Program-made: the position numbers and the translations under genes | Notes under the pieces: model-generated | The model's input: the letters and a program-made list of their open reading frames with translations, nothing else | Databases searched by the model: none | Told to the model about the DNA's origin: nothing | DNA from: Aureibaculum flavum | GTDB taxonomy: Bacteria > Bacteroidota > Bacteroidia > Flavobacteriales > Flavobacteriaceae | NCBI RefSeq assembly: GCF_016406085.1 | Contig: NZ_JAEHFJ010000006.1 | Coordinates: 1-64,000, forward strand | DNA length: 64,000 nucleotides | Direction of reading: 5' to 3' | Shown: positions 19,304-49,970 of the stretch, in pieces | How positions within the stretch are numbered: the first letter of the stretch is position 1 | How the letters are laid out: every line of letters begins with the position of its first letter

Positions 19304-19344
19304 AATTTCTGCTTATCCCGAACAGGTAATTTGTTTTTAAATGT

Positions 19345-19500: not shown

Positions 19501-19529
19501 TTTTCACTATTTTAACTTTTCAAATAGTG

Positions 19530-28687: not shown

Positions 28688-29191
28688 CTATTCAGTTTTG
28701 TTTAAATGATCAATAATTCCACTGCTAAATACTGTTTTTAAGGTTCTTGCAGGTTTGTTTTCGTAACCGATGATAATCGAACTATGCACTATCATTTTTT
28801 CGAAATCAAAAACTATAGTTAAATAATCTTTTTTTCCTGTTTCGTGCCAATTGACTAAATACAAGTTATCACCAATTTTACGAGAACGATAAGAGATGTC
28901 TGAATTCCCATTACCTTTTGCTGGACCTGCAACCCATTCATATTCAGCTTTACCATTGCTAAACTCCATATGGATTGCAGTTCCGTTTTGATACTGAAAG
29001 TTCAGTGAGTAACCATCTAAAAAATGTTCTGGCTCACCAAATTGAAATTTACTTTCTTCGATGGTTTTGCTTTGAGCGAAACTATGTCCTACACTAAATA
29101 ACGTAAGACAAACAAAAACGATTAATTTTGTTTTACCGACGAAGCTTTTATTATTTATCTTGTGTAAGTGATTTTTCTCTGAATAATTCAT
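28688..29191 (-). CDS. Exported MoaF/calycin-like protein
   Basis: A 167-aa exported protein: a hydrophobic segment (residues 22-38, ending SFAQ) acts as a signal peptide, with a long polar N-region, so the true start may be the Met before a shorter leader that is not present here. The mature part is beta-rich (YSLNFQYQNGT, IHMEFSNGKAEYEWVAGP, NLYLVNWHE), like the small lipocalin-type barrels of the MoaF/phenolic-acid-decarboxylase group. Family placement is tentative. Follows an AraC regulator on the same strand, 98 bp apart. Confidence 0.55.
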   Translation of the reverse strand: MNYSEKNHLHKINNKSFVGKTKLIVFVCLTLFSVGHSFAQSKTIEESKFQFGEPEHFLDGYSLNFQYQNGTAIHMEFSNGKAEYEWVAGPAKGNGNSDISYRSRKIGDNLYLVNWHETGKKDYLTIVFDFEKMIVHSSIIIGYENKPARTLKTVFSSGIIDHLNKTE

Positions 29192-30310: not shown

Positions 30311-32200
30311 CTAAGACTCTTTTGTGTTTTTCAAAATCGCTCTTATATATTCACTATCCCAATGGTTATCATATTCAACAATACCTCTTTTAAAATCTTC
30401 ATTTAAAAATTTTTCTTGTTGCTCTAACTCTTTTTTAACTTTAAAAATATAGTCATCATCATGGTTTGGTTCTGTTGCTAGCCTTCTTAAACTATCTTCG
30501 TCATATTTTATAAAATTTCTAACCTGTCTATTAATTGTATATTTTCTAAATCCTAATTTACTCAATACATCTTTAGCTAAGGTTAATGAAGTTTCTAGTG
30601 ATTCGCGATAAATATTTTCGTTACCAAGATTTAATAACTCATAAGCATCAAACCTATCTTTTGTTCGGATCAATAATTCTACATGCGGATATTTATCTTT
30701 AATTAAACTACTAATTGCTTTAGAAACTGAAATTTTATTGGTTGCACATATAACAATTTTAGCTTCTGCAATACCTGCCGATTCTAATAAGTCAATACGT
30801 GTTGCATCTCCATAGTATACCTCAAAGCCCATTTTCCTTAGAAAATCTACACGACTAGAATCATGATCAAGTATGGTTGTTTCAACACCATGAGATCGCA
30901 AAAACCTTCCTATAGTGCTTCCGAAATTACCAAAACCAACTAATATAATTTTTTGAGATTTTGCAATATGATCCATAGGCCGTTTTACAGACTCTTTAGT
31001 ACCAATTCTCGGCAATATTAAACGTTCGTTAATTATTCCAAGTATGGGTGTTAAAGACATACTAAGTGCAGTTATCACCAACATCATATCCATTTGATCT
31101 TGCTGTAAAATATTGAGTCCTGAAGCGAACGCCAGCAGTACAAATGCAAATTCTCCTATTTGTGCTAAGCTAAATGTCAATAACAACTTTTGATCTAATT
31201 TTAGTTTAAACAGATGACCAGTTATAAATAAAACTATCGCTTTTAAAACAATAATTGCAACTAAAATTCCGCCAATGGTAAGTGGACTGTTCGCTATAAC
31301 GATAAAATTTATGGAAGCTCCAACCGCCATGAAGAAGAGGCCTAAAAGTAAATTTTTAAACGGTTCTAGCGTACTTTCTAATTCATGTTTAAACTCACTA
31401 TTTGACAAAACTACTCCACCCAAAAAGGCACCTAAAGCAGGACTAATTCCAACATATTCCATTAAGAATGAAATAGAAAAAACGATTAAAAAAGCTGCTG
31501 CTATTAGTAACTCACGCACACCTGTCTTAGCTACTTTACGCATCATAGGAACTATTAAATATTTACCTGCAACTATTATTAATACCACTGATAAAATAAT
31601 AGCCAATGTTTGTAAACCTATGGGTAGACTATTTAATAAATTAGAATGCCCATCTTGGTTTTCGGCAGAAACATTACCGTCTGAATTTGACAATAGTGGA
31701 ATAAAACCCAACATAAAAATCACAATAATATCTTGAAAAAGTAATATGGAAAAGGAAGCAGTACCAAATGTGGAATCCATTAATCCTTTTTCCTTTATCG
31801 TTTGCATTGCAATTGCTGTGGATGATAATGCGACAGCCATAGAAATCACCAACGCTACTTTCCACTCTAAACCTAATAGTGTAAACAAAATATAAGAAAG
31901 TAACATGGTCCCTCCTACTTGTAGACCTCCCATGCCTACAATAGTTTTTCTCATTTTCCAGAAATTTTTTGGTTCAATCTCTAGCCCTATGAGAAACAAC
32001 ATCATTACGACACCAAACTCTGCAAAATGTAATATGTCATCACCTTCATTTCCAATAAAACCTAGTACATAAGGTCCGATTAATACACCTGCTAATAGAT
32101 ATCCAATGACAGAACTTAACCCAAATCGTTTGGCAATAGAAACACATAATATGGCTCCAGCTAAAAAGACAATGGCTTCAAACAGTAAACTTCCAGTCAT
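30311..32200 (-). CDS. KefB/KefC-type CPA2 cation:proton antiporter
   Basis: A 629-aa protein with 12-13 transmembrane helices (residues 1-390) of the CPA2 family, including GYLLAGVLIGPYVLG and ISPALGAFLGGVVLSNSEF, then a cytosolic Rossmann-type TrkA-N/KTN domain (IILVGFGNFGSTIGRFL) and a C-terminal tail. Kef systems release K+ and acidify the cytosol in response to electrophile-thiol adducts. The KefF-like ancillary gene is 3 bp upstream. Which thiol adduct gates it in this organism is unknown. Confidence 0.92.
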   Translation of the reverse strand: MTGSLLFEAIVFLAGAILCVSIAKRFGLSSVIGYLLAGVLIGPYVLGFIGNEGDDILHFAEFGVVMMLFLIGLEIEPKNFWKMRKTIVGMGGLQVGGTMLLSYILFTLLGLEWKVALVISMAVALSSTAIAMQTIKEKGLMDSTFGTASFSILLFQDIIVIFMLGFIPLLSNSDGNVSAENQDGHSNLLNSLPIGLQTLAIILSVVLIIVAGKYLIVPMMRKVAKTGVRELLIAAAFLIVFSISFLMEYVGISPALGAFLGGVVLSNSEFKHELESTLEPFKNLLLGLFFMAVGASINFIVIANSPLTIGGILVAIIVLKAIVLFITGHLFKLKLDQKLLLTFSLAQIGEFAFVLLAFASGLNILQQDQMDMMLVITALSMSLTPILGIINERLILPRIGTKESVKRPMDHIAKSQKIILVGFGNFGSTIGRFLRSHGVETTILDHDSSRVDFLRKMGFEVYYGDATRIDLLESAGIAEAKIVICATNKISVSKAISSLIKDKYPHVELLIRTKDRFDAYELLNLGNENIYRESLETSLTLAKDVLSKLGFRKYTINRQVRNFIKYDEDSLRRLATEPNHDDDYIFKVKKELEQQEKFLNEDFKRGIVEYDNHWDSEYIRAILKNTKES

Positions 32201-32203
32201 ATC

Positions 32204-32800
32204 TTATGAGATTTTTAATTTTTCTATATCATTTAAAAATAAAGTATCCTTAATATCAGATCGTTCCACAGTATTTTGAAGTAAGCCTATTAATTTCGAA
32301 TATTGATTTGCATAAATTTGTAAATCTTCATCATTTAATTTGTGTGTTCCCATAACAGCAAATGGAGGCAAATACTTCATACCACATAATTTTGCAGTTT
32401 GTTCAAACGGTCTTAGAAATTGATTCACAGAAAAGCTATTTACACCCTCTGAACAATACATATCTTTTGACCCTCCAGTGGTTATTACATTAAGGCAGAT
32501 TTTATCTTGTAGTGCTACCCCTTTAGGTCCATAGGCCCAATTAAACTCTAAAACCATGTCTATCCACTGTTTCATTAATGGTGGACAACTATACCAATAT
32601 AATGGGTGATGCCAAATAATAACATCATGTTCATTTAGCAGTTCTTTTTCTTTATCTACATCAATATGAAAATCAGGATAACGTTCGTACAAATCGTGCA
32701 GCGTTACTCCTTCCTTATCCTTTATCCTTTCAATAAGTGCTGAATTTGCTCTTGACTTTTCAAATTTAGGATGCGAAAACAGAATTAGTATTTTTTTCAT
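32204..32800 (-). CDS. KefF/KefG-like NAD(P)H oxidoreductase
   Basis: A 198-aa flavodoxin-like NAD(P)H:quinone oxidoreductase, the ancillary subunit of Kef channels. It begins KILILFSHPKFEKSRANSAL (FMN-binding loop) and carries HPLYWYSCPPLMKQWIDMVL with FNWAYGPKG, typical of KefF. Binding of this subunit is needed for full activity of KefC-type transporters and may itself reduce quinone electrophiles. Translated with the antiporter gene, 3-bp gap. Confidence 0.9.
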   Translation of the reverse strand: MKKILILFSHPKFEKSRANSALIERIKDKEGVTLHDLYERYPDFHIDVDKEKELLNEHDVIIWHHPLYWYSCPPLMKQWIDMVLEFNWAYGPKGVALQDKICLNVITTGGSKDMYCSEGVNSFSVNQFLRPFEQTAKLCGMKYLPPFAVMGTHKLNDEDLQIYANQYSKLIGLLQNTVERSDIKDTLFLNDIEKLKIS

Positions 32801-32821: not shown

Positions 32822-32859
32822 AAATAAGCGATTAGTATTTAACTTCTAATCGCTTATTT
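32822..32859 (-). terminator. 14-bp perfect stem terminator of ten-gene cluster
   Basis: AAATAAGCGATTAG (32822-32835), 10-nt loop, CTAATCGCTTATTT (32846-32859), with T runs on both sides. It lies between the aldehyde dehydrogenase stop and the KefF-like start, marking the end of the cluster. Confidence 0.88.
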
Positions 32860-32879: not shown

Positions 32880-34370
32880 TTATTTAAAATCAGATGCTTT
32901 GAACGGATATTTTCTTGGTGTTTTCTGAATAGTTATCCAATGTGCAACGGTAAACGATTTTACGCCCCATTGTCCATTAAAACGACCTAATCCTGAGTTT
33001 TTAACACCTCCAAAGGGTGCATAAGCACTATCATTTACGGGTTGGTCATTAATATGCGTCATACCAGCTTCAATACCTTGTGCAAATGCCATTCCTTTAG
33101 CTTCGTCTTGTGTAAATACAGCACTAGACAAACCAAAATCTGTAGCATTAGCTAAACGCAATGCGTCTTCCATATCTTTAGCACGCGTAATAGAAACTGC
33201 AGGTCCAAAAATCTCGTGTTTAAACAACGGACAATTTTCATCTGTATCTACAAAAACGTGCGGTGGCATATGCAAACCATCTGCTTCACCACCTAAAGCC
33301 ATTTTATAACCTTGTGCTTTAGCTTCGTCTATTAAATTTTTAACGGTGTCAAATTGTGCTTGATCTATGATTGGTCCTACAAACGTGTCAGGATCATTCA
33401 TATCTAAACGTTTTAAGGTTTTAACTTTTGCAATGAATTTTTCTGTGAATTCGTCATAGACTTTATCTTCTACAATAATTCTGTTAATAGCCATACAAAT
33501 TTGACCTTGGTTCATAAATTTACCCCAAGCAGCAGCCTCAACAGCTTGATCAATATCAGCATCTTCAAGCACTACGAACGGACTGTTACCACCCAATTCT
33601 AATTCGATATTTTTAATGATATCAGCACTCAACGCATTTATTCCTACTTGACGACCAACCGGAGTTGAACCTGTAAAAGAAATTAATTTTGAAATTGGAT
33701 GTTTGGTAATTGCAGTACCAATAGTACTTCCGCCACCTGGCAATACACTTAATAACCCCTTTGGAAAACCTGCTTCCTCTAAAAATGAAGCAAAAATTAA
33801 TCCTCCAGTCACTATAGAAGTCGATGCTGGTTTTAAAACCACTGCATTACCAACTGCTAAGGCAGGACCTAAAGTACGTGCTGTTAACTGTCCTGGGAAA
33901 TTCCAAGGAGAAATTAATCCTATAACCCCTAATGGTTTTCTAACTGCAATGGATTCTTTTCCTTCAATATCTCGCGGTAAAATTTTACCTTCTACTAATA
34001 ATGGTAAATGCACAGCACTTTCAAAAACACTAGCTACCAATTCGGCTTCAAAATAACCTTTAGCTAAGGTTGCTCCTACTTCTTTTCGTGCCCATTCTGC
34101 AAATTCTTGTTTACGATTTCTAACAACCGTAGCTAGTTTTTGCATCATTCTGCTCTTTTCTGGAGGTAATACTGCAGCCCATTTTTTTTGTGCAATTGCA
34201 GCTGTTTCAAAAGCTTCATTTACATCATCTACAGTTGCACTACTTAAAGAAAATAATTCCTCTTGATTCCAAGGGTTAATATCTTTTATGGCTGGCCCTT
34301 TTCCGTCTTTCCATTCGCCACCCACAAATATTTTTTTGGTGTAATTAGGTAATTCTTCTTGTGTTTTCAT
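32880..34370 (-). CDS. Aldehyde dehydrogenase family protein
   Basis: A 496-aa NAD(P)+-dependent aldehyde dehydrogenase. GLISPWNFPGQL, the cofactor loop FTGSTPVGRQVG, the general base region ELGGNSPFVVLEDADI and the catalytic Cys in MNQGQICMAINR are all intact; the C-terminal GGVKNSGLGRFNG completes the oligomer interface. It resembles benzaldehyde/vanillin-type dehydrogenases more than betaine-type ones, but the substrate is not certain. Last gene of the ten-gene cluster, 44 bp after an ABM gene. Confidence 0.92.
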   Translation of the reverse strand: MKTQEELPNYTKKIFVGGEWKDGKGPAIKDINPWNQEELFSLSSATVDDVNEAFETAAIAQKKWAAVLPPEKSRMMQKLATVVRNRKQEFAEWARKEVGATLAKGYFEAELVASVFESAVHLPLLVEGKILPRDIEGKESIAVRKPLGVIGLISPWNFPGQLTARTLGPALAVGNAVVLKPASTSIVTGGLIFASFLEEAGFPKGLLSVLPGGGSTIGTAITKHPISKLISFTGSTPVGRQVGINALSADIIKNIELELGGNSPFVVLEDADIDQAVEAAAWGKFMNQGQICMAINRIIVEDKVYDEFTEKFIAKVKTLKRLDMNDPDTFVGPIIDQAQFDTVKNLIDEAKAQGYKMALGGEADGLHMPPHVFVDTDENCPLFKHEIFGPAVSITRAKDMEDALRLANATDFGLSSAVFTQDEAKGMAFAQGIEAGMTHINDQPVNDSAYAPFGGVKNSGLGRFNGQWGVKSFTVAHWITIQKTPRKYPFKASDFK

Positions 34371-34414
34371 TTTTAGTGTTTTTTTTGATTACTATCTTTA
34401 ATAACCAATAATTA

Positions 34415-35041
34415 TTATATCTCGTTTACTTGATGTAAATATTCTGGGATAGGACGTTCTAATGTTTCTGATAACACTTTACCAGTTTCCATAGAAAGTG
34501 CGTCTGTTGTAGAAAATTTCAGTGCAAATTCTTGTGTTTTCCATTCCTCAATAACTACCAACTGATTTGGATTTTCTAAAACCGTATATGCATTGAAAGA
34601 AACACAATCATCTTGTGCTCGCACATTCGGTATTTGCTTCTCGTATTGTGCTATCAGTTTTTTGTTTTCATCAGCTTTAATATCAAACAAAGCAATAACA
34701 CGTAGTTCTGCTGAATTTGCAGTACTGCTAAACTCTTCAACTCCTTTTTCTTCGGAAACTTCACCAACCAAAACATAAGCTTTAGGTGGGTTTACAAGTG
34801 CTTCATTTGCTAATTCTGCTAGTTTTAGTTCGTAGGGTTGAGAACGATGAAATGCCACAGCCTCTTCTCCTGTAAACAATTCATATCCAAAAAACATATT
34901 AGGGTTTTGCTTGTCTTCAAACAAGCGAATACCCAAACATCCTGGTTCTTCAACACTTCCCTTTTTAACAGCAATTAAAGCCTCTTTAAATTGAGAACGG
35001 AATGCTGGTTTTACTTCAAACTGACCTATAACTTTTATCAT
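34415..35041 (-). CDS. Tandem ABM-domain protein 1
   Basis: A 208-aa protein with two antibiotic-biosynthesis-monooxygenase (ABM) ferredoxin-like domains: IKVIGQFEVKPAFRSQFKEAL at the start of the first and VIALFDIKADENKKLIAQYE at the second, with FGYELFTGEEA and VIEEWKTQEFA as the typical third strands. Single ABM domains normally dimerise; here two are fused. They act as cofactor-free oxygenases or bind quinone-like molecules. One of three such proteins in the cluster, and the most diverged. Confidence 0.83.
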   Translation of the reverse strand: MIKVIGQFEVKPAFRSQFKEALIAVKKGSVEEPGCLGIRLFEDKQNPNMFFGYELFTGEEAVAFHRSQPYELKLAELANEALVNPPKAYVLVGEVSEEKGVEEFSSTANSAELRVIALFDIKADENKKLIAQYEKQIPNVRAQDDCVSFNAYTVLENPNQLVVIEEWKTQEFALKFSTTDALSMETGKVLSETLERPIPEYLHQVNEI

Positions 35042-35070
35042 CTTACTTGATTTTAAATTATTGATTAATT

Positions 35071-36012
35071 CTAAAGAGTAACAATCACTTTGCCAACCGT
35101 TCTTCCTTTTTCTACTTCTCTATGTGCGTCTGCCATATCTTCAAAAGCAAACGTTTTATAGATGTTTGGTTTAATAGCACCACTTTCTAACATTCCTTTT
35201 AAAGTGTTCATGTCTTTAGCGCTTGAATGCACTAAAATATTAGAAACCGTTTTGTTTCCTTTCTCTGCTATAGCTTTAGCTTCTTCGGGCATATCCATAC
35301 CAAAAGTGGTAATTACTGTTCCTCCATCTTTTAAAACCTTAGTGGAGTTCACTAATACTTGACCACCTTGAGTATCTAATACAAAGTCGATATCAGATAA
35401 GATTTCTTCAAATTTTTGTGTGTGATAATCTATAGCTTCAGCTGCACCAATAGATAGTACAAAATCTTTGTTTTTAGCTGAAGCAGTAGTAATTACATAC
35501 GCTCCGAAGCTTTTTGCTATTTGAATTGCAAAATGACCAACTCCACCAGAACCAGCTTGAATTAAAACTTTATCTCCTTTATTAATTTTTCCTTCTAAAA
35601 TTTGTAATGCCGTTAAAGCAGCCAAAGTAGTCGCAGCAGCTTCTTCAAAAGAAACGTTGCTTGGCATAAGTGCTAAATGAGCTTCTGGAGCTGCAACAAA
35701 TTCCGCGTATGCTTTACCTGCTCCTGGAAAGTTTACCATCCCAAAAACAGTATCACCTACTTTAAAATCGGTAACGGCTGTACCAGCCTCAGTTACTGTT
35801 CCTGCAATATCCCATCCTAAAATAACTGGACGATTTTTACCGTACATTGAATCCAACATTTTGTCAGTGTACTTTGGTTTTACATCTGCAGGGTTTAATG
35901 AAATTGCTTTAACAGCAACTAACACTTCGTTTTCTTTTATGCTTGGCTTTTCTACTTCTGCTAAATGAAGGTTTTCTGGTCCTCCTGCTTTTGTTAATAC
36001 TATAGCTTTCAT
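35071..36012 (-). CDS. NADP-dependent quinone-reductase-like MDR
   Basis: A 313-aa zinc-less medium-chain dehydrogenase of the quinone oxidoreductase group. N-terminal GroES-like domain (GWDIAGTVTEAGTAV), then a Rossmann domain with the NADPH motif AGSGGVGHFAIQIAKSFGA and C-terminal GRTVGKVIVTL. Such enzymes reduce quinones or activated alkenes by one- or two-electron transfer. Lies 39 bp downstream of the NTF2-like lipoprotein gene. A paralogue is at 47780-48793 in the second nitroreductase operon. Confidence 0.88.
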   Translation of the reverse strand: MKAIVLTKAGGPENLHLAEVEKPSIKENEVLVAVKAISLNPADVKPKYTDKMLDSMYGKNRPVILGWDIAGTVTEAGTAVTDFKVGDTVFGMVNFPGAGKAYAEFVAAPEAHLALMPSNVSFEEAAATTLAALTALQILEGKINKGDKVLIQAGSGGVGHFAIQIAKSFGAYVITTASAKNKDFVLSIGAAEAIDYHTQKFEEILSDIDFVLDTQGGQVLVNSTKVLKDGGTVITTFGMDMPEEAKAIAEKGNKTVSNILVHSSAKDMNTLKGMLESGAIKPNIYKTFAFEDMADAHREVEKGRTVGKVIVTL

Positions 36013-36051
36013 ATTGTGTGTTTTTTAAAAAATTATATTTGATGAATTTGA

Positions 36052-36570
36052 TTAAAATAAAGGATTATCGTTCGCAGATTTATCTCCTTTATTGAAGGTG
36101 TTAAACGCATCCCAATGTTCAGAAATTTTACCGTCTGTAATTCTAAAAACATCCATTGTAGAGGTTCTATCACCTTCTTTATTTGTAATTACTTGTACAA
36201 AAACTAGGTCTTTTTCTGCAACAATAAGATTGAAGTTGAGTTTAAATTTAGGAGCATCTTTTAACCAAATAGGTAACATTTCTTTAAGCGCTTCTCTACC
36301 GTCTGCAACATTAGGGTTGTGCTGAATGTAAACTGGACCAACATATTTATCTATGTTTTGATAATTCTGGTTTCCGAAGAGGTCTTGATAAAAATCTGTT
36401 ACTACTTTTTTGTTTGCCTCTAAAGTCGCTTGCTCCTGATTTTGAACTTCTATTTTAGATTCCAAATTTGTAATGTTTTCATTTAATTTTTTTAATTCCG
36501 CAGAATTGTCTGTACAAGATGCAAATAAGATAGCACCAATTAATACTACTGTTAGTTGTACTTTTTTCAT
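36052..36570 (-). CDS. NTF2/SnoaL-like lipoprotein
   Basis: A 172-aa lipoprotein: lipobox LFASC near residue 19, then a charged coiled-coil (ELKKLNENITNLESKIE) and a SnoaL/NTF2-like cone fold from about 55 to the C-terminus (VVTDFYQDLFGNQNYQNIDKYVGPVY, WDAFNTFN). SnoaL-like proteins are polyketide-cyclase or isomerase-like enzymes or small-molecule binding proteins. Membrane-anchored, facing the periplasm or surface. Confidence 0.8.
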   Translation of the reverse strand: MKKVQLTVVLIGAILFASCTDNSAELKKLNENITNLESKIEVQNQEQATLEANKKVVTDFYQDLFGNQNYQNIDKYVGPVYIQHNPNVADGREALKEMLPIWLKDAPKFKLNFNLIVAEKDLVFVQVITNKEGDRTSTMDVFRITDGKISEHWDAFNTFNKGDKSANDNPLF

Positions 36571-36714
36571 AATTTTAATTTTAGTTATTTGTTAATTTTA
36601 ATGACACTATAAATCTATAAATGTCTTATAATTTAGTAATGGTAAAAATGCTCCCTTGGACTGTACTTTTGTGCCCTTCTTGATGTTTACTGATTTTATT
36701 AAGAAAGAGGCTCC
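36571..36714. other. 144-bp gap within the cluster
   Basis: The largest gap between the ten genes. No clear terminator or promoter was found, so an internal promoter or processing site is possible. It separates the CMD-propeller gene from the downstream half. Confidence 0.5.
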
Positions 36715-38286
36715 CTACTTTTTATCGTAGACTACAGTCGCCCCTTTACCTTGTTTTAAGGTCAATCGCATCTGTGTAGCATTTACTTCGATTACAATTT
36801 CGTCATAACCCAAATCCAAATCCCCAATTTTACTTGTACGCGTAAAGAAAGTATCTTTCCAATCCCAAGTTCCCGTTAGTATTTTCCCGCCAAAGACTCC
36901 AAATATTTGTCCGTCGTGAGAAGCTACAGATGTACCTTCTTTATCACCGTAAAAATTATCGGCAGTTAATTTTAAATACTCCTCTTTTGTTTTAATTCGA
37001 TGCCAGTTATCATCAATAGACTCGCTAGAAACCAAATTATTTGGAAGTGAAAAAGATTCAATTTTATTACTAAAGAGAATTGGTGCATATAGGGTATTGC
37101 CTAGAATACTTATATCTGCTAAACCTTTTGAAAAAGTTCCAACTAATTGTTTAGCATTATCGTTAATAAAAAACAAATCGCTAACCGTACCACCAGTCAC
37201 TAAATATCCATCTTTAACTGCTGCTAAACCATCTAAAGCACCTAATTGATAGCCACTTTTAATCATCGTAGCTGTTTTGTCTTTTAGGTTGACTTTATAC
37301 AAACTACCATACTTATCTGGAGTTAACTCTAATGATAATTCTGCACCAAAATCAGCTATAATTAAATTATCATCTTGGATGAAAATTCCGTTTGGATGCT
37401 TAATTTCTGGTGTTTGAAACCAAACCACTAGTTTGTTATTTTCTAAAGTGAAAATTTTTCCGCCTGCAATATCAGAGATAAAAACCTGTCCAGTTTTAGA
37501 AACTACAACATCATTTAATGAAACCACATCTGTTGATGTAAAGCTATTTATGAGCTTACCTTTTTTTACATCAATTATATGAAGTTCCTTACCATCACCT
37601 ACATACAATTTGTCTTGGTATAAAGCTAAACCAGCAGGGTTGTTTAACCCTGTTACCCATTTATAATTATCTACTTTACCAGCTTTTGTAATTCGGCTTA
37701 TATATCCTTTTTCATTCTGATTTACGTTAGAAACATACAACCAATCTTCAGTTGGAGAAGCTACTATAGATTCTGGCATAGCAAAACCCTCTAATTCCCA
37801 ATTTTTAATTAATTCATTAGAAGAATTAACTTTTGTAGTCGCCAAATAATTGGTTTCATCTAAAACTTCTTTCAAAGCAAAAATCCCATTGTTTGATGCT
37901 GGGAAGCCTGTGTATAGGCTTAATAAAATCATCGTTTCAGAAATCTCATTTGGAGTTACACCAAGGTTTAGTGCTGCTTTCATATGAGATTTTAATTGTG
38001 ATTTTGCATTGGCTTGTGTAGTAAGGCTGGCTATTATTAATAATTCTTTTGTCTTAAAATCTAAACCTGTTCTGTTGTAAATTTCTCCAAAACCATAACG
38101 AATAATATAATCTGCCATATCTGGAGACACGCTTTCAAAAGCGGCTTCCAGACCTTTTGAAGCGCCATCGCCATTTACCTCATTTACAATTTTTACGCCT
38201 GTTTTATAGTTATCTTCCTTTGTGTTTTGTGCAATACTCGCAAAAGAGAAAGACAATGCTAAAACTAAAATTATATACTTTTTCAT
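36715..38286 (-). CDS. Exported CMD-SMP-30 propeller fusion protein
   Basis: A 523-aa exported protein built of three parts. After a signal peptide (KKYIILVLALSFSFASIAQN) comes a CMD-like helical domain (about 35-160; FKTKELLIIASL, LKSHMKAALNLGVTP) with a conserved Glu and His but no CxxC. Then an SMP-30/gluconolactonase-like propeller (about 180-410; YVSNVNQNEKGYISRI, GLALYQDKLYVGDG). The last 100 or so residues are a separate domain with no match. The start at 38286 was chosen because the frame opens upstream inside the preceding gene. I know no named family with this architecture. Confidence 0.75.
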   Translation of the reverse strand: MKKYIILVLALSFSFASIAQNTKEDNYKTGVKIVNEVNGDGASKGLEAAFESVSPDMADYIIRYGFGEIYNRTGLDFKTKELLIIASLTTQANAKSQLKSHMKAALNLGVTPNEISETMILLSLYTGFPASNNGIFALKEVLDETNYLATTKVNSSNELIKNWELEGFAMPESIVASPTEDWLYVSNVNQNEKGYISRITKAGKVDNYKWVTGLNNPAGLALYQDKLYVGDGKELHIIDVKKGKLINSFTSTDVVSLNDVVVSKTGQVFISDIAGGKIFTLENNKLVVWFQTPEIKHPNGIFIQDDNLIIADFGAELSLELTPDKYGSLYKVNLKDKTATMIKSGYQLGALDGLAAVKDGYLVTGGTVSDLFFINDNAKQLVGTFSKGLADISILGNTLYAPILFSNKIESFSLPNNLVSSESIDDNWHRIKTKEEYLKLTADNFYGDKEGTSVASHDGQIFGVFGGKILTGTWDWKDTFFTRTSKIGDLDLGYDEIVIEVNATQMRLTLKQGKGATVVYDKK

Positions 38287-38293
38287 TCTATTA

Positions 38294-39148
38294 TTATTTT
38301 CCATTTTGCTTAGCGGTAGCCTTTGGAGCTGCACCTTGTTTTAAATCTTTATTTCTGAATTTTTCAGTTTCTGGAAGTTGTAAATTCACTTGATTTACTT
38401 CTTGAATTTCAATAGAAAGCTTATCAAATTTGATATCCTCTAAATGTCCACCCAATTTTATATCGTCTGATAAAAAGTGAAAATGCATTCCCGGAATTAC
38501 AATATTTCCTAGATAATCTGGTGTAAATAAACCTACCAAAGTGCCCTTAATGTTGTCTCTAGTATACATTACACGAGTGTCTAAATATTCAAATAAAGAC
38601 ACATCTTCATTCTCTACTTTATGTGCAGAAGCCATCTTTAGATACTTAAATTCACCTTTAATTCTATACGCGTAAAAGCTATTTTTAGAGGTTGAATATT
38701 TCTGAAGTTCTCTAGTTAAGTCTTCATAAGACTCAATATTTTCAACAGTTACGGTTTGTTTCGGCTGAAAATTTATCATCGTCATATTTGGCGATTCTAA
38801 ATCGTCTGGTGCTTCTGCGATTTCACCTTCGGCATCAATCGTATAGACCACTCCGTCTACAGCAACCAGCTCTCCAGCCAAATGATTTACGGTTCCAATA
38901 CCAATGTTACCCTGTTGCACCATTTGTTGCGGGGTAATATCACCTTCGTAAATACTATTTAACAAGGCAACCGTTGGTGCATATTGGTGAATGGTGTTTT
39001 CGGTATGAGGCGCCAAACCGTGTTCGTCCACACCTTGAGAATGTGAATGTCCGTGTGCTTCTTCCGAAGTTGACATTGCTTCTTTTTTAGTCTCATTTCC
39101 GCAGCTTGCTAAAAGGGCCAACGAAAATAATAGCATTAGTTTTTTCAT
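38294..39148 (-). CDS. Acetolactate decarboxylase-like lipoprotein
   Basis: A 284-aa lipoprotein (lipobox ALLASC, Cys17) related to acetolactate decarboxylase, which turns 2-acetolactate into acetoin. Core motifs are present: GTVNHLAGELVAVDGVVYTID, GLFTPDYLGNIVIPGMHFHFLS and the metal-binding HFH with DDIKLGGH. A His-rich segment (GHSHSQ) follows the lipid anchor. Substrate is uncertain because the enzyme faces the periplasm, while acetolactate is made inside the cell. The start at 39148 places the signal peptide correctly. Gap to the fusion gene: 7 bp. Confidence 0.82.
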   Translation of the reverse strand: MKKLMLLFSLALLASCGNETKKEAMSTSEEAHGHSHSQGVDEHGLAPHTENTIHQYAPTVALLNSIYEGDITPQQMVQQGNIGIGTVNHLAGELVAVDGVVYTIDAEGEIAEAPDDLESPNMTMINFQPKQTVTVENIESYEDLTRELQKYSTSKNSFYAYRIKGEFKYLKMASAHKVENEDVSLFEYLDTRVMYTRDNIKGTLVGLFTPDYLGNIVIPGMHFHFLSDDIKLGGHLEDIKFDKLSIEIQEVNQVNLQLPETEKFRNKDLKQGAAPKATAKQNGK

Positions 39149-39176
39149 AATGATTGATTTTTTTTGTTCAACTGAA

Positions 39177-40079
39177 TTAGTTTTCAGTAAACAACATATT
39201 TGCACTTCCTAATAAGTAATTTCTCCATCCAAAATTAGGATACGCTTTATCCATTTTCTGAATGAATTCTTCGCTATTTTTAGAAGCAGCAAGTAGTACT
39301 TTCATTTCTTCAAGATAATTAATTTTAATGGTCACATCTCCCGAAGTTTCGGGTGCACTGTGTGAAGAAAAATAGGTGGTATACCCTTTTTCCTGAAAAT
39401 CAGAAAGCTCGTTAATTACGGTGTCTATAAATTCAGAATTAAAAATCATAGTATGGTTATCGTGCCCAACCATATGCAAATGGACAGCCTTTATTTCTGG
39501 CATTTCTACATCAAAACCAAAACCAGTTGGCGTAATAATAAAAGGAATTCCTGAAATTTCTTGTGCTCCTGCTTCTAGCAAATCGGTTGGCACTATTGTA
39601 GTTTCGTCTAGATCTTCACCTGAGACTTCTGCTAATTTTGAGAGCGATTCATTACCAGAATTCGTCATATAATCTAAAGATTCTTGATTAGAATATATAT
39701 GGTTAAATTTTAGTTTATCCGTATCAAAAAAGTGCTTTCCTATTAAATGATAAGAAACCATCACATCAATATTTGTGTAACCTAAACCAACAATATAATC
39801 CACTAGTTCATTGTAATTATCTTTCATTGGTGGTGTTTCAATCAATACTCCTTTTCCGTTTTTTTCAATAAAAAAAGCGTGTGTATTAAAAAAACCTTTG
39901 GTTTCGTAAACGTGAACTTTAGTTTGACCGTAATCAAAAATTTGCATCGTACCCTTATCTAATTGTACTGCTTTTGTGTTTTCATTAAATGTTCTCATAC
40001 TTGGTTCTTGAGCAGAAATTTCCTGAATGCCAACTGCAACTATAACTCCGAAAACTAATGCTGTAAATCTATTTTTCAT
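39177..40079 (-). CDS. Exported degenerate MBL-fold protein
   Basis: A 300-aa protein with a signal peptide (TALVFGVIVAVGIQEISAQ). Its layout suggests a metallo-beta-lactamase fold (THAFFIEKNGKGVLIETPP, DVMVSYHLIGKHFFDTDKL, GHDNHTMIF, YFSSHSAPE), but the HxHxDH motif is altered to YHLIGKH. It may bind fewer metals or have lost hydrolysis. Family assignment is from pattern only. Upstream neighbour: ABM gene, 12 bp. Confidence 0.6.
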   Translation of the reverse strand: MKNRFTALVFGVIVAVGIQEISAQEPSMRTFNENTKAVQLDKGTMQIFDYGQTKVHVYETKGFFNTHAFFIEKNGKGVLIETPPMKDNYNELVDYIVGLGYTNIDVMVSYHLIGKHFFDTDKLKFNHIYSNQESLDYMTNSGNESLSKLAEVSGEDLDETTIVPTDLLEAGAQEISGIPFIITPTGFGFDVEMPEIKAVHLHMVGHDNHTMIFNSEFIDTVINELSDFQEKGYTTYFSSHSAPETSGDVTIKINYLEEMKVLLAASKNSEEFIQKMDKAYPNFGWRNYLLGSANMLFTEN

Positions 40080-40091
40080 TTTAAATATTTT

Positions 40092-40715
40092 TTAAATTTC
40101 AGTTACAAAATTCATGTATTGTTCTAAATCTCCAACAACAGCCTCATTCATTAATTTACCTGTTTTTTCTGCGTAAGGTTGGTGAAAATGAATATCCCAA
40201 ACATCAGATTCTTTTCTCCAATGCTCATAAACAGCCAATGTATCGTCTTGGTCATCTACTGTGTATAAATCAAAAAGAATGTTTCCTTTTTCCTCTTTTC
40301 TGGTATGAGTAATATGGTCTTCAAACTGATTTAAAAGTTGTGCTCTAAATTCTGTTTTCAACTTAAATATGAAGAATATGATAAATACTTCATCTTCCGG
40401 ATTTGCAGATTTAGAATGGTCTGGTAACGGATTAGTATCACCTAAGAAATAAAAATCTGGAGCACCTGCTAATGCAGTTTGTCCAACTTTCATTAACTTC
40501 TTTGTGTGTGGCTCGTTATCGTGAGATGTTATTGCTGCTTTGTCTGCCCAACGTTCGTAAACAAAAAATACATTGGCATCTGTATTCGATACAAATACCT
40601 TAATTTCTTTATTACCAGCTTCTTTTTGTGTTGCTGCTTGTGCTTCTTTTAAGGTTGTTGCAAAAGTAGTTGCGTGTTCTGGTTTTGCTGTAAATTTTAC
40701 TATTGTACTTTTCAT
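40092..40715 (-). CDS. Tandem ABM-domain protein 2
   Basis: A 207-aa cytosolic protein with two ABM domains (TIVKFTAKPEHATTFATTLKEAQ and IIFFIFKLKTEFRAQLLNQFED) and the typical FVYERWADKAAI and VYEHWRKESDVWDIH strands. Close paralogue of the next gene upstream (40777-41397), as shown by the shared GETNP/GDTNP linker and the ending VVGDLEQYMNFVTEI. Probably arose by gene duplication. Confidence 0.87.
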   Translation of the reverse strand: MKSTIVKFTAKPEHATTFATTLKEAQAATQKEAGNKEIKVFVSNTDANVFFVYERWADKAAITSHDNEPHTKKLMKVGQTALAGAPDFYFLGDTNPLPDHSKSANPEDEVFIIFFIFKLKTEFRAQLLNQFEDHITHTRKEEKGNILFDLYTVDDQDDTLAVYEHWRKESDVWDIHFHQPYAEKTGKLMNEAVVGDLEQYMNFVTEI

Positions 40716-40776
40716 ATCATTAAATTTTAAGAATTATTTTATTATGTCTGTGAAAGATTGCTTAGAAACTGCAACC

Positions 40777-41397
40777 CTAAATTTGTGTAACGAAATTCAT
40801 ATACTGTTCTAAACCTCCAACAACAGCTTCATTCATTAAAGCTCCTGTAATTTCAGAATATGGCTGTTTCATATGAATTTCCCATACGTCGGCTTCTTTT
40901 CTCCAATGTTCATAAACAACTAAAGTATCATTCTGACCTTCAACAGTGTATAAATCAAATAATAAATTCCCTTTTTCCTTACGAGTATTTTCAATATGAA
41001 TTCCAAAACGTTCAATTAAACGTTCTCTATATCCATCTTTAATTTTAAAAATAAAGAAAATAATAAATAATTTGTCTTCTGAATTTGGTGTTTTAGCAGG
41101 AACTGGAGCTGGATTTGTTTCTCCTAGAATTAGAATATCTGGAGCACAAGCCAATGTACTTTCAGCAACTTTCATCATATTTGATGCGTGTGCTGTTTTT
41201 TTATGACTTTCTGATGCTGCTTCATTTTCCCAACTATCATAAGCAAAAATTATATTTGGGTTTTTAGTATCCACAAACAAATTCATTCCTTTAAAACCTT
41301 CTTCTTGTTGAGCTCCTTTTCTATTTTCTAACAACGCTTCCATAAAAGTTGCTCTACCTTCTAGTGTTGTTGTGAATTTTACTATTAAATTTATCAT
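40777..41397 (-). CDS. Tandem ABM-domain protein 3
   Basis: A 206-aa cytosolic protein with two ABM domains (INLIVKFTTTLEGRATF and IIFFIFKIKDGYRERLIERF; VYEHWRKEADVWEIHMKQPY). Paired with the adjacent paralogue, which suggests dosage or hetero-oligomer formation. Lies 26 bp behind the nitroreductase gene. Confidence 0.87.
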   Translation of the reverse strand: MINLIVKFTTTLEGRATFMEALLENRKGAQQEEGFKGMNLFVDTKNPNIIFAYDSWENEAASESHKKTAHASNMMKVAESTLACAPDILILGETNPAPVPAKTPNSEDKLFIIFFIFKIKDGYRERLIERFGIHIENTRKEKGNLLFDLYTVEGQNDTLVVYEHWRKEADVWEIHMKQPYSEITGALMNEAVVGGLEQYMNFVTQI

Positions 41398-41423
41398 TTT
41401 CTTAAATTTTGTCTATTTGTTAA

Positions 41424-42077
41424 TTATAACACTGTAATTATTTCTTCTTCTGGTAAACGAGATTTTGGCAATGCTGCGTTAAAATCTGAATCTTTTCTAT
41501 ATCCTAAAGACACAACAGCTAATGCTGTATACCCTTTTTCACGTAAGCCGAATTCTTCATCTAAAGCTTTAACATCTACACCTTCCATTGGGCAAGCGTC
41601 TATACCTAAAGCAGCAACTCCTAATAAAAGAGACCCCATATTTAAATAGACTTGTTTTTCCATCCAATGTGGTAAATCTTTAAGGTCGTATTTATGAATA
41701 TCTGCAAACAACATACGTCCACCGTGCATTTGGTCTTTAAATTCTTGTGCAGCAAAACGACCGTCTTTATCTTCTTGCTCTAAAATGCTAGTCATATATG
41801 CATAGTCTGCATTTGTGCGAGCAGCAATAACAATTACGTGAGAGGCATCTAAAACCTTAGGTGTATTAAAATGAAAAAATCCTTGTGTTCCTTTAGCAAT
41901 ACGAGCTTTCCCTTCTGGAGTATCTGCAATTAAAAAATGCCAAGGTTGTAAGTTTACACTAGATGGACTTAAACGCAATAAATCTTTTACTTGTTTAAAA
42001 TCTGCATCTGAGATCTTTTTAGTAGCATCAAATTCTTTTACGGAATAGCGGTTGTTTAAAATTTCAGTTAAATTCAT
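41424..42077 (-). CDS. Nitroreductase family protein
   Basis: A 217-aa FMN-dependent nitroreductase (NfsB/YodC/HypO-like). RYSVKEFDATKKISDADF, the FMN contacts SPSSVNLQPWHF, and ACPMEGVDVKALDEEFGL are typical. It reduces nitro groups and quinones with NAD(P)H. First gene of the ten-gene cluster, with an exact promoter upstream; paralogue of the gene at 49211. Nitroreductases are classical targets of HxlR-type YodB/HypR repressors. Confidence 0.92.
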   Translation of the reverse strand: MNLTEILNNRYSVKEFDATKKISDADFKQVKDLLRLSPSSVNLQPWHFLIADTPEGKARIAKGTQGFFHFNTPKVLDASHVIVIAARTNADYAYMTSILEQEDKDGRFAAQEFKDQMHGGRMLFADIHKYDLKDLPHWMEKQVYLNMGSLLLGVAALGIDACPMEGVDVKALDEEFGLREKGYTALAVVSLGYRKDSDFNAALPKSRLPEEEIITVL

Positions 42078-42107
42078 TTTTGTTTTATTTATATGTTGAT
42101 TCGTTAT

Positions 42108-42182
42108 ACTATCATTTTTATAGTGACAAAAGTATGTATAGTATTATTGTCTTGCAATAACGGTCGTAAAGTATAGTATGAT
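42108..42182 (-). promoter_or_regulatory. HxlR-controlled promoter/operator A
   Basis: Minus strand TTG (42157-42155), 20-nt spacer, TACTTTTG (42134-42127): exact Bacteroidota promoter about 50 bp upstream of the nitroreductase. GTATAGTAT occurs at 42136-42144 in the spacer and at 42171-42179 beyond the -33 box. The whole block is nearly repeated at 49898-49970. Confidence 0.82.
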
Positions 42183-42246
42183 ATAAATTATTAACTAACT
42201 GATTTAAAGTTTTTTAAAAATAAAAAAATAACTATAAAAAATATAG

Positions 42247-42277
42247 TTGCATACTAAATTAAAGTATACTACCTTTG
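42247..42277 (+). promoter_or_regulatory. HxlR gene promoter with palindrome
   Basis: TTG (42247-42249), 20-nt spacer, TACCTTTG (42270-42277), exact match. The spacer contains CATACT...AGTATA, an imperfect inverted repeat related to the GTATAGTAT boxes of the divergent promoter, suggesting autoregulation. Confidence 0.8.
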
Positions 42278-42341
42278 TGTTTTAAATTCAGGAAAAATTG
42301 CATAACTTAATTGGTAGTTATGTATTAAATAATATATAGAA

Positions 42342-42725
42342 ATGGACCGAAAAGAACTATTTGAAAAAAAACCGAAAATCAAAATCAATGGTAAAATTTC
42401 ATTTTGCCCTACAAGTGCTGCTATGGAACTTATTGGTGGTAAATGGAAAAGTGTTATCCTAACTCATTTAATTGGCGATAAAAAACGTTACAATGAATTA
42501 CGAAAAGAGATTCCAGGTATTACGGAGCGTACCTTGAGTTTACAATTAAAACAATTAGAGGCCGATGGCATAGTAAACAGAAAAGTGTTTACAAAAAAAC
42601 CGCCTTTAAAAGTAGAATATACGCTTACAGCGTTTGGACAAACGTTGGTTCCTATTTTAGAACTGATTACAGAATGGGGTTTACGAGCAGCAGAAACTAA
42701 AGGTGAATTTTTATTTGATGAATAA
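42342..42725 (+). CDS. HxlR-family redox-sensing regulator
   Basis: A 127-aa winged-helix regulator: CPTSAAMELIGGKWKSVILTHL, helix-turn-helix KEIPGITERTLSLQLKQLEADG and wing KPPLKVEYTLTAFGQ. Cys22 in the ISFCP motif is at the position of the redox-active Cys of YodB/HypR (established for those proteins). Divergent from the nitroreductase-led cluster, with matching operator sequences in both promoters and in the second nitroreductase operon. Confidence 0.93.
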   Translation: MDRKELFEKKPKIKINGKISFCPTSAAMELIGGKWKSVILTHLIGDKKRYNELRKEIPGITERTLSLQLKQLEADGIVNRKVFTKKPPLKVEYTLTAFGQTLVPILELITEWGLRAAETKGEFLFDE

Positions 42726-47779: not shown

Positions 47780-48793
47780 TCACATTAAAAAACCTTCTAA
47801 AACTATTTTACCTTTTGCGTTTCCGGTTTCTAAGAAAGCGTGTGCTTTTCTAAGATTTTCCGCATTAATAGTTCCGAAATTTTCACCTAAAGTGGTTCTT
47901 ATCGTTCCGTTATCTATTAATTGAGAAACTTTGTTTAAAATGTTATGTTGCTCTATCATATCTTCCGTTTGAAACATAGCACGCGTAAACATTAATTCTA
48001 TATGTGTTGAAACTGCTTTCCCTTTAAAAGGCATAACATTTAAGACCTTTGGGTCATCAATAAATCCGAATTTACCTTGTGGTTTAATCAGCTTTACAAT
48101 TTCATCAATGTGTTGTTCTGTACCATTTAAACTCACTACATATTCTGGAGCAGGAAGGCTATATTTTTCAAACTCTTCGCTCAATTTATTTCTGTGGTTG
48201 ATTACCGTATCTGCACCTAATTCTTTTAACCAATCTGTAGTTTCTTCGCGAGAAGCGGTAGCAATAATGTTCAGTTTTGTTAACTTCTTGGCTAATTGCA
48301 CCATAATAGAACCAACGCCTCCAGCTGCTCCTATTATTAAAATAGATTTATTGGCATCGTCTTTAGACACCTGTAATCTATCAAATAACATTTCGTAAGC
48401 AGTAAGTGTTGTTAATGGTAACGCAGCAGCTTCAGCATACGATAAACTTGATGGCTTTTTACCAACAATACGTTCATCTACCACTTGATATTGAGCGTAA
48501 CTTCCTTGACGTGTAAAATCGCCAGCATACCAAACTTCATCACCAACATTAAAAAGGGTAACGTTTTCTCCAATTGCTGTTACAATTCCGGTAGCATCCC
48601 AACCTATAACTTTCCATTCGTCACCTTGTACAGGCATATTTGCACGAACTTTATAATCTGCAGGATTTACAGAAATGGCTTTTATTTCTACTAAAATGTC
48701 TTTTCCTGTTGCTTTTGGTTTGTTTAATTCTATATCTTGTAATGCGTTTTCATCTTCAATTGGAAGATTCTCTTTGTATCCTACTGCTTTCAT
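47780..48793 (-). CDS. Zinc-type MDR (quinone-reductase-like)
   Basis: A 337-aa medium-chain dehydrogenase of the zinc-binding alcohol dehydrogenase/quinone reductase group: GWDATGIVTAIGENV, cofactor motif IGAAGGVGSIMVQLAKKL, C-terminal GKIVLEGFL. Reduces quinones or enones with NADPH. Third gene of the nitroreductase operon B; overlaps the membrane protein gene by 4 bp. Confidence 0.88.
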   Translation of the reverse strand: MKAVGYKENLPIEDENALQDIELNKPKATGKDILVEIKAISVNPADYKVRANMPVQGDEWKVIGWDATGIVTAIGENVTLFNVGDEVWYAGDFTRQGSYAQYQVVDERIVGKKPSSLSYAEAAALPLTTLTAYEMLFDRLQVSKDDANKSILIIGAAGGVGSIMVQLAKKLTKLNIIATASREETTDWLKELGADTVINHRNKLSEEFEKYSLPAPEYVVSLNGTEQHIDEIVKLIKPQGKFGFIDDPKVLNVMPFKGKAVSTHIELMFTRAMFQTEDMIEQHNILNKVSQLIDNGTIRTTLGENFGTINAENLRKAHAFLETGNAKGKIVLEGFLM

Positions 48794-49206: not shown

Positions 49207-49210
49207 ATTG

Positions 49211-49876
49211 CTATATTACAGTGATAATTTCACTTTGTGGTAATCTAGATTTTGGTGTTTTTTCTGTTGAATTAAAATCAGATGCTGCTCTATAACCTAA
49301 AGAAACAACTACTAGAGACGTAAATCCTTTTGCTCTTAATCCGAATTCTTCATCTAAAGCTTTTACATCAACACCTTCCATTGGCGTTGCATCGATACCT
49401 AAACTAGCTACACCTAATAAAAAGTTACCAATGTTAAGGTATACTTGTTTTTCCATCCAATGTTGATAATCCTTTAAATCATATTTATGAATATCGGCAA
49501 AAGCGTTCATTCCTCCGTACATTCCGTTCTTTATGTCTTCATTAGGAAATCTTCCGTCTTTATCCTGTACTTCTAAAAGGTGTTTAAAAAAAGTATCATC
49601 TGCACCTTCACTTGTTTTTGAACAAAACAGTACAACTGCTGACGCATTCGTTATTTTTGGTTCATTAAAATGAAAAAAGCCTTGTGTTCCTTTTGTCATA
49701 CGTGCTTTTCCTTCTGCAGTTTCAGCAACTATAAAATGCCAAGGTTGAAGGTTTACACTTGAAGGACTCATCCTTAATAAGTTTTTAACCTGTGCCATAT
49801 CTTCTTCAGATATTTTCTTGGTTGTGTCGTATTCCTTTGTTGAATATCTCCAGTTTAATGTTTCTTGTAAATTCAT
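49211..49876 (-). CDS. Nitroreductase family protein
   Basis: A 221-aa FMN nitroreductase, paralogue of the 41424-42077 protein (shared RYS.KE, SPSSVNLQPWHF, MEGVDVKALDEEFGLR and SRLP ending). Leads operon B (nitroreductase, membrane protein, MDR). Its promoter is almost the same as that of the first copy, so both should answer to the same HxlR regulator. Confidence 0.92.
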   Translation of the reverse strand: MNLQETLNWRYSTKEYDTTKKISEEDMAQVKNLLRMSPSSVNLQPWHFIVAETAEGKARMTKGTQGFFHFNEPKITNASAVVLFCSKTSEGADDTFFKHLLEVQDKDGRFPNEDIKNGMYGGMNAFADIHKYDLKDYQHWMEKQVYLNIGNFLLGVASLGIDATPMEGVDVKALDEEFGLRAKGFTSLVVVSLGYRAASDFNSTEKTPKSRLPQSEIITVI

Positions 49877-49897: not shown

Positions 49898-49970
49898 ACT
49901 ATCATTTTTATAGTGACAAAAGTAAGTATAGTATTAAAACCTCACAATAACGGTCATAAATGATAGTACT
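49898..49970 (-). promoter_or_regulatory. HxlR-controlled promoter/operator B
   Basis: Minus strand TTG (49947-49945), 20-nt spacer, TACTTTTG (49924-49917). The block from ACTATCATTTTTATAGTGAC (49898) through GTATAGTAT (49926-49934) and CAATAACGGTC to GATAGTACT is a near copy of 42108-42180. No regulator gene lies next to this operon, so control in trans is expected. Confidence 0.82.

Follow-up and report, generated by a model that had tools for sequence, protein, structure and literature searches.

What holds together ten adjacent genes whose products range from a nitroreductase to an acetolactate-decarboxylase-like (ALDC-like) lipoprotein? The question is raised by a 64,000-nucleotide stretch of Aureibaculum flavum DNA (hereafter the window), in which an HxlR-type regulator gene is divergent from a ten-gene operon. 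The initial annotation, made from the sequence alone, had described these genes as one HxlR-linked unit of unusual electrophile-processing enzymes. In our analysis these odd enzymes become part of a probable regulon, which has a defined promoter-operator, comprises two operons, is built of a core and exchangeable modules, and was clearly transferred between genera recently; the second operon, the horizontal spread, the modular accessories and an altered active site in the ALDC-like protein had been missed. With moderate confidence, we regard the whole as an inducible, horizontally mobile electrophile-detoxification island, which may let marine bacteria withstand a reactive compound.

Promoters and operators of two operons

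The ten open reading frames (ORFs) all lie on the minus strand between 32880 and 42077, and an ORF check of the window gave the same coordinates as the initial annotation. The hxlR gene (42342..42725, plus strand) encodes a predicted HxlR/DUF24 repressor (Pfam PF01638, E 8.7e-30, 102.9 bits) with a single cysteine, Cys22. Orthologues were compared in 15 flavobacterial loci (the window, 13 loci in named hosts and one further locus, G198), and Cys22 is the only cysteine in all 15. Scans for sigma-70-type promoters and for terminators did no better than shuffled sequence (promoters, 70 vs 84.0; terminators, 7 vs 7.2), and for promoters we searched instead for the Bacteroidota type. In flavobacteria the sigma-A -7 box has the sequence TAnnTTTG (PMC9723704; this and the other papers are cited for those parts of their text that were available). 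The predicted hxlR promoter, TTG-N20-TAnnTTTG, is at 42247..42277 on the plus strand. The predicted operon promoter has the same form and is at 42127..42157 on the minus strand; alignment of the spacers placed its TTG at the end of a conserved ACCGTTATTG. As background, TTG-N17/21-TAnnTTTG has 11 matches on both strands of the 64 kb. Operator 1, ACTATAAAAAATATAGT (42231..42247), shares one base with the -33 TTG of the hxlR promoter, and operator 2, ACTATAAAAATGATAGT (42108..42124), begins 2 bp after the -7 box of the operon promoter. Judged by these positions, both are placed where a repressor should sit.

The two palindromes are conserved in the aligned hxlR-operon spacers of the window and 13 relatives. 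We found 31 copies of ACTAT-N7-ATAGT in 417,635 bases from 18 sequences (15 flavobacterial and three gammaproteobacterial), and none of the reversed control pattern. Twenty-six copies are in the 15 hxlR-operon spacers, compared with a mean of 0.025 and a maximum of 1 in 200 dinucleotide shuffles; four precede genes for a second nitroreductase (NTR2, below), and one is elsewhere (locus L022). Divergent TTG-N19/20-TAnnTTTG promoters, one on each strand, were present in every one of the 15 spacers (shuffle mean 0.005, maximum 1). Because the spacers are related by descent or transfer, these statistics show conservation and not 15 independent events. The initial claim of a Cys22-containing regulator with matching operators was thus strengthened. 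A separate feature of the spacer is ACCGTTATTG itself (approximately 42155-42164, minus strand, in the -33 region of the operon promoter), which is invariant in 14 aligned spacers and is repeated before NTR2. It is perhaps an activator site in addition to a -33 box.

The composite pattern TTG-N20-TAnnTTTG-N1/4-ACTAT-N7-ATAGT occurs at exactly two places in the A. flavum genome, and its control at none. One precedes the ten-gene operon and the other precedes a second operon, NTR2-P0001-MDR2 (47780-49876). The promoter region of this second operon is almost a copy of the one before the main operon and also contains ACCGTTATTG. The second promoter is predicted at 49917..49947 on the minus strand, and the third operator (49898..49914) has the same letters as operator 2. 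The three genes are on the minus strand and encode a second NfsB-type nitroreductase, NTR2 (49211..49876; NF008275, PRK11053, 299.1 bits, cut-off 227); a 138-residue protein without a family match, hydrophobic by eye (P0001, 48790..49206); and a zinc-binding-alcohol-dehydrogenase-family reductase, MDR2 (47780..48793; TIGR02817, 541.8 bits). The same promoter-operator precedes NTR2 in loci L017, L027 and L038, so that the second operon with its operator is found in four of the 15 loci. In L018, an MDR2-like gene is beside a different nitroreductase, and there is no operator there. Given the shared promoter-operator, NTR2-P0001-MDR2 is probably a second member of the HxlR regulon, a link not drawn previously.

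Only the composite promoter-operator, and not the palindrome alone, is specific in this genome (2 vs 0). A palindrome match at G000:C12:533576 was rejected because it is inside a gene that looks SusC-like by eye. Ten further loose palindrome matches outside the window could be additional regulon members or chance.

Distribution and transfer of the cluster

We scanned the ALDC-like protein against a collection of 84,980 species. The scan required exact conserved peptides and can miss distant copies. It returned 16 loci, 13 in Flavobacteriaceae (four Zobellia, two each of Cellulophaga, Lacinutrix and Maribacter, and one each of Olleya, Dokdonia and Flavobacterium gillisiae) and three in gammaproteobacteria (two Pseudoalteromonas and one Psychromonas). 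Genome searches added G198, giving 14 Flavobacteriaceae loci besides the window; G017, G378 and G432 are repeats of L019, L024 and L021 and were left out of the counts. Gene order and strand are conserved in the 15 Flavobacteriaceae loci, with changing accessories. Genes for HxlR, a protein with ABM domains, the ALDC-like protein and a medium-chain reductase (MDR) are present in all 15, a nitroreductase (NTR) gene in 14 (L027 has none in its hxlR-linked operon), and an aldehyde dehydrogenase (ALDH) gene in 13 (absent in L017 and L018). A propeller protein is encoded in 13 loci, in 10 of them with a CMD domain. The accessories are a SnoaL lipoprotein (six loci), a second SnoaL_2-like protein (six), a metallo-beta-lactamase-like (MBL-like) protein (five), a third ABM protein (three), and an alpha/beta hydrolase with a membrane-anchor-like start (six), which is distantly like PcaD. 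The synteny check that had been proposed thus found the arrangement in 14 other loci. The layout, the relatives and the spacers together bear out the idea of one HxlR-linked unit that mixes cytosolic reductases with proteins that look exported. In Cellulophaga sp. 20_2_10 the ALDH gene (L016:14504-15993) is read as two ORFs of 373 and 115 residues, a possible frameshift.

The gammaproteobacterial loci are reduced to NTR-ABM-ALDC in the two Pseudoalteromonas and to ABM-ALDC in Psychromonas. In one Pseudoalteromonas (L028), no small regulator ORF of at least 60 residues was found between the triad and its upstream neighbour. In both (L028 and L029), genes for an outer-membrane efflux protein and an AcrB-type pump follow the triad on the same strand. 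Because the set is shared by two phyla, the nitroreductase, the tandem ABM protein and the ALDC-like protein most likely form a chemical core, as judged from gene content, and the remaining genes would be exchangeable substrate modules.

The cluster ALDC is rare. It was found in five of 397 genomes of the family (including A. flavum), in one of 395 genomes of a class sample (A. flavum itself), and was absent from the 16 other genomes examined in the genus, although two of these have matches of only 30-32%. Nine of the 12 ALDC hits from the genome searches are generic relatives, 31-35% identical, and were left out of the counts; no relative of NTR, ABM, MDR or HxlR was seen in the 3.6-3.8 kb around these nine. 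A literature search of titles and abstract openings, with subscription journals mostly outside it, found no description of the cluster.

Comparison with RpoB indicates transfer. Over a 514-residue core stretch of RpoB, A. flavum is 81-84% identical to the 13 named flavobacterial hosts and G198; its ALDC-like protein is 86-98% identical to those of the same 14 loci. The ALDC gene of Zobellia uliginosa DSM 2061 matches that of Maribacter sp. MMG018 at all but 3 of 861 bases. Over its core, the gene is 98% identical in DNA in Dokdonia and Maribacter vaceletii; for Cellulophaga fucicola and Z. uliginosa C3R17 the figure is 97%, and for Olleya and Z. amurskyensis it is 96%. Two strains filed as Z. 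uliginosa have versions only 80% alike. The window matches Cellulophaga (L016) at 94-95% DNA identity from the second ABM gene to the ALDH gene, with 36733-37042 unmatched. Their NTR genes are only 79% alike, and the NTR nearest to that of the window is from Olleya (89%). Parts of the cluster therefore have different histories. From these sequence comparisons, recent and repeated transfer between the cluster-bearing flavobacterial genera is clear. Transfer to or from gammaproteobacteria is less clear: the ALDC proteins of the three gammaproteobacterial loci are 55-58% identical to that of the window, and RpoB identity for two of the hosts is 48-49% in the larger piece and reaches 58-60% in the final 83-84 residues. 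There was no anomaly in GC content (33.4% vs 32.1%).

Proteins of the ten-gene operon and its neighbours

Searches of Pfam and NCBIfam confirmed the Aldedh, ABM, MDR (ADH_N/ADH_zinc_N), SnoaL, CMD, AAL_decarboxy and nitroreductase families. The family calls of the initial annotation held, except that the MBL-like call is a weak, fold-level match. The first gene (41424..42077; like all ten, on the minus strand) encodes an NfsB-type nitroreductase (NF008275, PRK11053/NfsB, 324.5 bits, cut-off 227), and its best PDB matches are also NfsB-type. Next are tandem-ABM protein 1 (40777..41397), which among the 15 loci is present only in the window and is 48-54% identical to ABM proteins of other loci, and tandem-ABM protein 2 (40092..40715), the core member. 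A third tandem-ABM protein (34415..35041) lies between the MDR (35071..36012; nearest NCBIfam model PIG3, below cut-off) and the final gene, for ALDH (32880..34370; PF00171, E 1.6e-148). Each of the three ABM proteins has two ABM stretches. LsrG is the best NCBIfam match of all three (E 1e-7 to 2.5e-13, 32-50 bits vs a cut-off of 135), and their C-terminal half is remarkably similar between the two phyla (21 sequences aligned, eight displayed). Four loci (L019, L024, L025 and L027, the last with two) encode five fusions of a propeller to tandem ABM with lipobox-type starts. ABM and propeller domains have therefore been shuffled, and ABM domains appear to be exportable.

Intergenic gaps are 7 to 144 bp, taking ATG codons at 39148 (ALDC-like) and 38286 (CMD-propeller) as starts. 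These are better starts, because the signal sequences begin there; the mechanical start of the ALDC-like gene was GTG 39205. Export signals were read by eye, with Sec-type starts on the MBL-like and CMD-propeller proteins and lipoboxes on the ALDC-like (LLASC) and SnoaL-like (LFASC) proteins. The operon ends at a predicted intrinsic terminator (32822..32859, minus strand) that folds at -15.4 kcal/mol (z = -5.9), in agreement with the strong terminator reported initially. The earlier suggestion that the 144-bp gap (36571-36714) splits the transcript was not supported: there is no TAnnTTTG box on the coding strand and no terminator in the terminator scan, and the same genes are approximately 15 bp apart in L020 and L021.

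The ALDC-like protein (38294..39148) resembles acetolactate decarboxylase (4BT2, TIGR01252) in scoring above the TIGR01252 cut-off (195.7 vs 180.65 bits). It also keeps His194, His196, His207 and Glu65, both in alignment to 4BT2 and within 17 members. We take the three histidines to be metal ligands and Arg145 to be an active-site residue. The cluster proteins differ from that enzyme in having alanine at the Arg145 position in all 17 aligned members and, in Flavobacteriaceae, a lipoprotein-type start. The arginine is present in all five PDB sequences displayed of seven found. Because this active-site arginine is replaced, acetolactate is a doubtful substrate. Arg145 is also absent in five aligned generic Bacteroidota relatives (of 12 loci with such relatives), and its loss is therefore wider than the cluster.

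The CMD-propeller (36715..38286) has a CMD domain, a beta-propeller with weak family matches and a C-terminal beta domain, with putative export. Its model has a mean pLDDT of 53.8 and is confident mainly in part of the propeller (approximately residues 211 to 320, in blocks of 71-92 pLDDT). Foldseek returned many beta-propellers, with Cj1041c as the best match and a putative SMP-30-type lactonase (2p4o) at rank 50. The fold is thus shown, and the reaction is not. The SnoaL/NTF2-like lipoprotein (36052..36570) is a Pfam assignment. For the MBL-like protein (39177..40079), which is putatively exported, Pfam gave no match at E 0.1. It is matched weakly by four NCBIfam models of the metallo-beta-lactamase fold (E 2.5e-4 to 4.8e-3), and a PDB search gave one unrelated, chance-level match (E 0.14). 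HxHxDH is the motif of this fold; by eye, the protein has HLIGKH at 111-116 and no HxHxDH. An AlphaFold model from four near-identical rows (pLDDT 47.9) was not used. From these matches, the fold is plausible.

Past the terminator, also on the minus strand, are genes for a KefF-like oxidoreductase (32204..32800) and a KefC-like K+ efflux antiporter (30311..32200). They resemble KefF-KefC in that the pair is downstream within the examined stretch in five of 15 loci and KefF passes its cut-off (NF002044, 213.1 bits, cut-off 210). They differ in that the window pair is behind the terminator, outside the operon, and KefC, although the best NCBIfam match, is below its cut-off (597.7 vs 752 bits). 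Two frames with ATP-grasp matches (296 and 305 residues), sought for glutathione synthesis and KefC gating, could be RimK-like. Directly upstream of the NTR2 operon is a gene for an AlkB-like 2-oxoglutarate-Fe(II) oxygenase (50148-50777), adjacent also in L017, L027 and L038; a DNA-alkylation repair gene beside an electrophile regulon may be meaningful. MoaF-like proteins are near or inside clusters in the window (28688-29191) and in L025 (12462-13307, below the Pfam cut-off). A cobalamin riboswitch (19336-19554; Rfam RF00174, 94.1 bits) is upstream of an ORF at 17477-19303.

Proposed function, alternatives and known systems

In the mechanism that we propose, HxlR would bind the ACTAT-N7-ATAGT palindromes, which are conserved, and shut its own promoter and that of the operon. 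A thiol-reactive electrophile (quinone-like, enone or halogenated) would enter, modify Cys22 and free the promoters of the repressor, by analogy to YodB and QsrR. The ten-gene operon and NTR2-MDR2, which share the promoter-operator, would then be induced together. Judging from protein families, the NfsB-type and MDR reductases would reduce the electrophile with NAD(P)H in the cytosol, the tandem ABM proteins would convert the phenol or ketol product, ALDH would oxidize released aldehydes in the cytosol, and the exported ALDC-like, CMD-propeller and SnoaL-like proteins would treat the same class of compound outside the inner membrane. Processing of one molecule on both sides of the inner membrane is conjectural.

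The electrophile theme of the initial annotation gained indirect support from the single-cysteine DUF24-type repressor, the NfsB- and PIG3-like reductases, and the KefF/KefC-like pair in five of 15 loci. Several results weigh against the island as we read it. Its link to electrophiles is through protein families and one cysteine, the KefF/KefC pair is beyond the terminator and in a minority of loci, and none of the 13 genes in the two operons encodes a ring-cleavage dioxygenase. Genome-wide, the palindrome by itself is at chance level, with a loose pattern at 14 places vs 18 for its control and a stricter pattern at four places (five strand matches) vs three; of the 11 loose matches outside the window, one was inspected. 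We found no HxlR relative and no operator in the three gammaproteobacterial loci. A link to halogens comes from one of 15 loci, with a protein below three dehalogenase cut-offs.

That protein is haloalkane-dehalogenase-like, carries HGNP and DWGG motifs and is encoded in G198; its gene and one for a DsbA-family protein are located between those for MDR and ALDH, on the same strand. The NCBIfam scores of the dehalogenase-like protein are 203.1 vs a cut-off of 466, 174.7 vs 241, and 139.9 vs 265; the best two of its PDB matches are named alpha/beta fold hydrolases, and haloalkane dehalogenases make up most of those that follow. Among the target genes of a study of three macroalgal metagenomes, those for haloalkane dehalogenases ranked first in abundance (PMC10919026). 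In Z. galactanivorans on fresh brown algae, genes of the oxidative-stress response were induced, as were a CMD-family protein and a haloacid dehalogenase (PMC9296495); this species is not among the cluster loci, and the text of that paper on algal growth, as available, does not describe the cluster. We treat the gene and both reports as substrate hints only.

A special case of electrophile detoxification would be defence against hypohalous acids or organohalogens of algae. HypR is grouped with YodB and CatR as sensors of reactive oxygen species, hypochlorous acid or quinones (PMC6798810), and stress to Zobellia from the halogenated compounds that algae emit is discussed (PMC9296495). The dehalogenase-like gene of G198 would fit, but its occurrence in a single locus and its scores leave this special case rather doubtful. 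A catabolic operon, in which a natural aromatic, lactone or polyketide would be used as a carbon source and be passed from the propeller, CMD, ALDC and SnoaL proteins outside the inner membrane to ALDH, is unlikely in our judgement. Families of the CMD/PcaC, SnoaL and ALDC types do occur in aromatic or polyketide metabolism, and a distantly PcaD-like hydrolase is found with them here; however, the annotated conserved cluster genes include no transporter, TonB receptor, ring-opening oxygenase or CoA enzyme, the regulator is a single-cysteine DUF24 repressor, and no closed pathway can be drawn.

Resistance to an antibiotic of competing surface bacteria would account for the sporadic distribution and the near-identical copies across genera, as seen for resistance genes, and for the efflux and AcrB-type genes beside the Pseudoalteromonas triad. 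Against it, PLSDB yielded no plasmid copy, all 170 records being below 60% identity to the ALDC-like gene, and we give this explanation a low probability. We consider it still less probable that LsrG-like ABM and ALDC-like proteins process alpha-dicarbonyls or hydroxydiketones, acting on diketones of the autoinducer-2 (AI-2) type or derived from sugars. LsrG is the best match of the three ABM proteins and ALDC acts on a ketol acid, but the ABM scores are far under the LsrG cut-off, the active-site arginine is absent and a nitroreductase fits poorly.

The electrophile-detoxification island remains our preferred reading. A tentative extension is a two-compartment detoxification of a quinonoid or halogenated seaweed defence compound, by a cassette exchanged among marine surface bacteria of two phyla, with a new core chain of nitroreductase, tandem ABM and exported ALDC-like protein plus substrate-specific add-ons. 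Were the inducer an algal defence compound, the cassette would mark bacteria able to live on, or first attack, living seaweed. The defined promoter-operator makes the substrate findable, and members of the ALDC-like and tandem-ABM families would be enzymes with an uncharacterized chemistry.

Among known systems, the MarR/DUF24 regulators YodB and CatR of Bacillus subtilis and QsrR of Staphylococcus aureus are the closest in design. They sense quinones by an N-terminal cysteine and control nitroreductase and quinone-reductase genes (PMC6798810). The cluster has a DUF24 repressor with such a cysteine and, by sequence, nitroreductase- and quinone-reductase-type genes behind shared operators, and some loci have an alpha/beta hydrolase, as does the related MhqR regulon (PMC6798810). 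YodB forms a disulfide to a second cysteine, whereas QsrR is alkylated at Cys5, and QsrR and single-cysteine YodB mutants also sense by alkylation in vitro (PMC6798810). The second cysteine for an intersubunit disulfide is missing from the cluster HxlR in all 15 loci, and alkylation or a mixed disulfide would therefore be expected. In other family members, the cysteine that corresponds to Cys11 of the B. subtilis formaldehyde sensor HxlR is reported to react with electrophiles or oxidants (PMC7835342). That sensor is of the same family, with its cysteine at the same distance, 12 residues, from the lysine of the IGGK motif, as read from a peptide in PMC7835342. It differs in that Lys13 of its Cys-Lys crosslink is Thr24 in the cluster protein, and in being an activator in formaldehyde, whereas the cluster sites lie as for a repressor. 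Formaldehyde sensing was rejected, since the Cys-x-Lys motif of helix 1 is missing (Cys-Pro-Thr instead of Cys-Glu-Lys).

The cluster differs from the YodB/QsrR regulons in several ways: neither operon in the window encodes a ring-cleavage dioxygenase; tandem ABM, ALDC-like and propeller proteins are present, and four of the ten proteins are apparently exported; and the genes are organized as one divergent ten-gene operon plus a second small operon. In HypR-HypO of B. subtilis, a DUF24 repressor controls a nitroreductase; its cysteine arrangement differs from that of the cluster HxlR, and the cluster has two operons and 13 genes. By analogy, then, the cluster appears to work like an electrophile regulon of the YodB/QsrR type, sharing the cysteine and nitroreductase features and lacking the second cysteine and the dioxygenase. 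The tandem ABM proteins, the exported ALDC-like protein without the active-site arginine, and the CMD- and ABM-propeller fusions are what is unusual.

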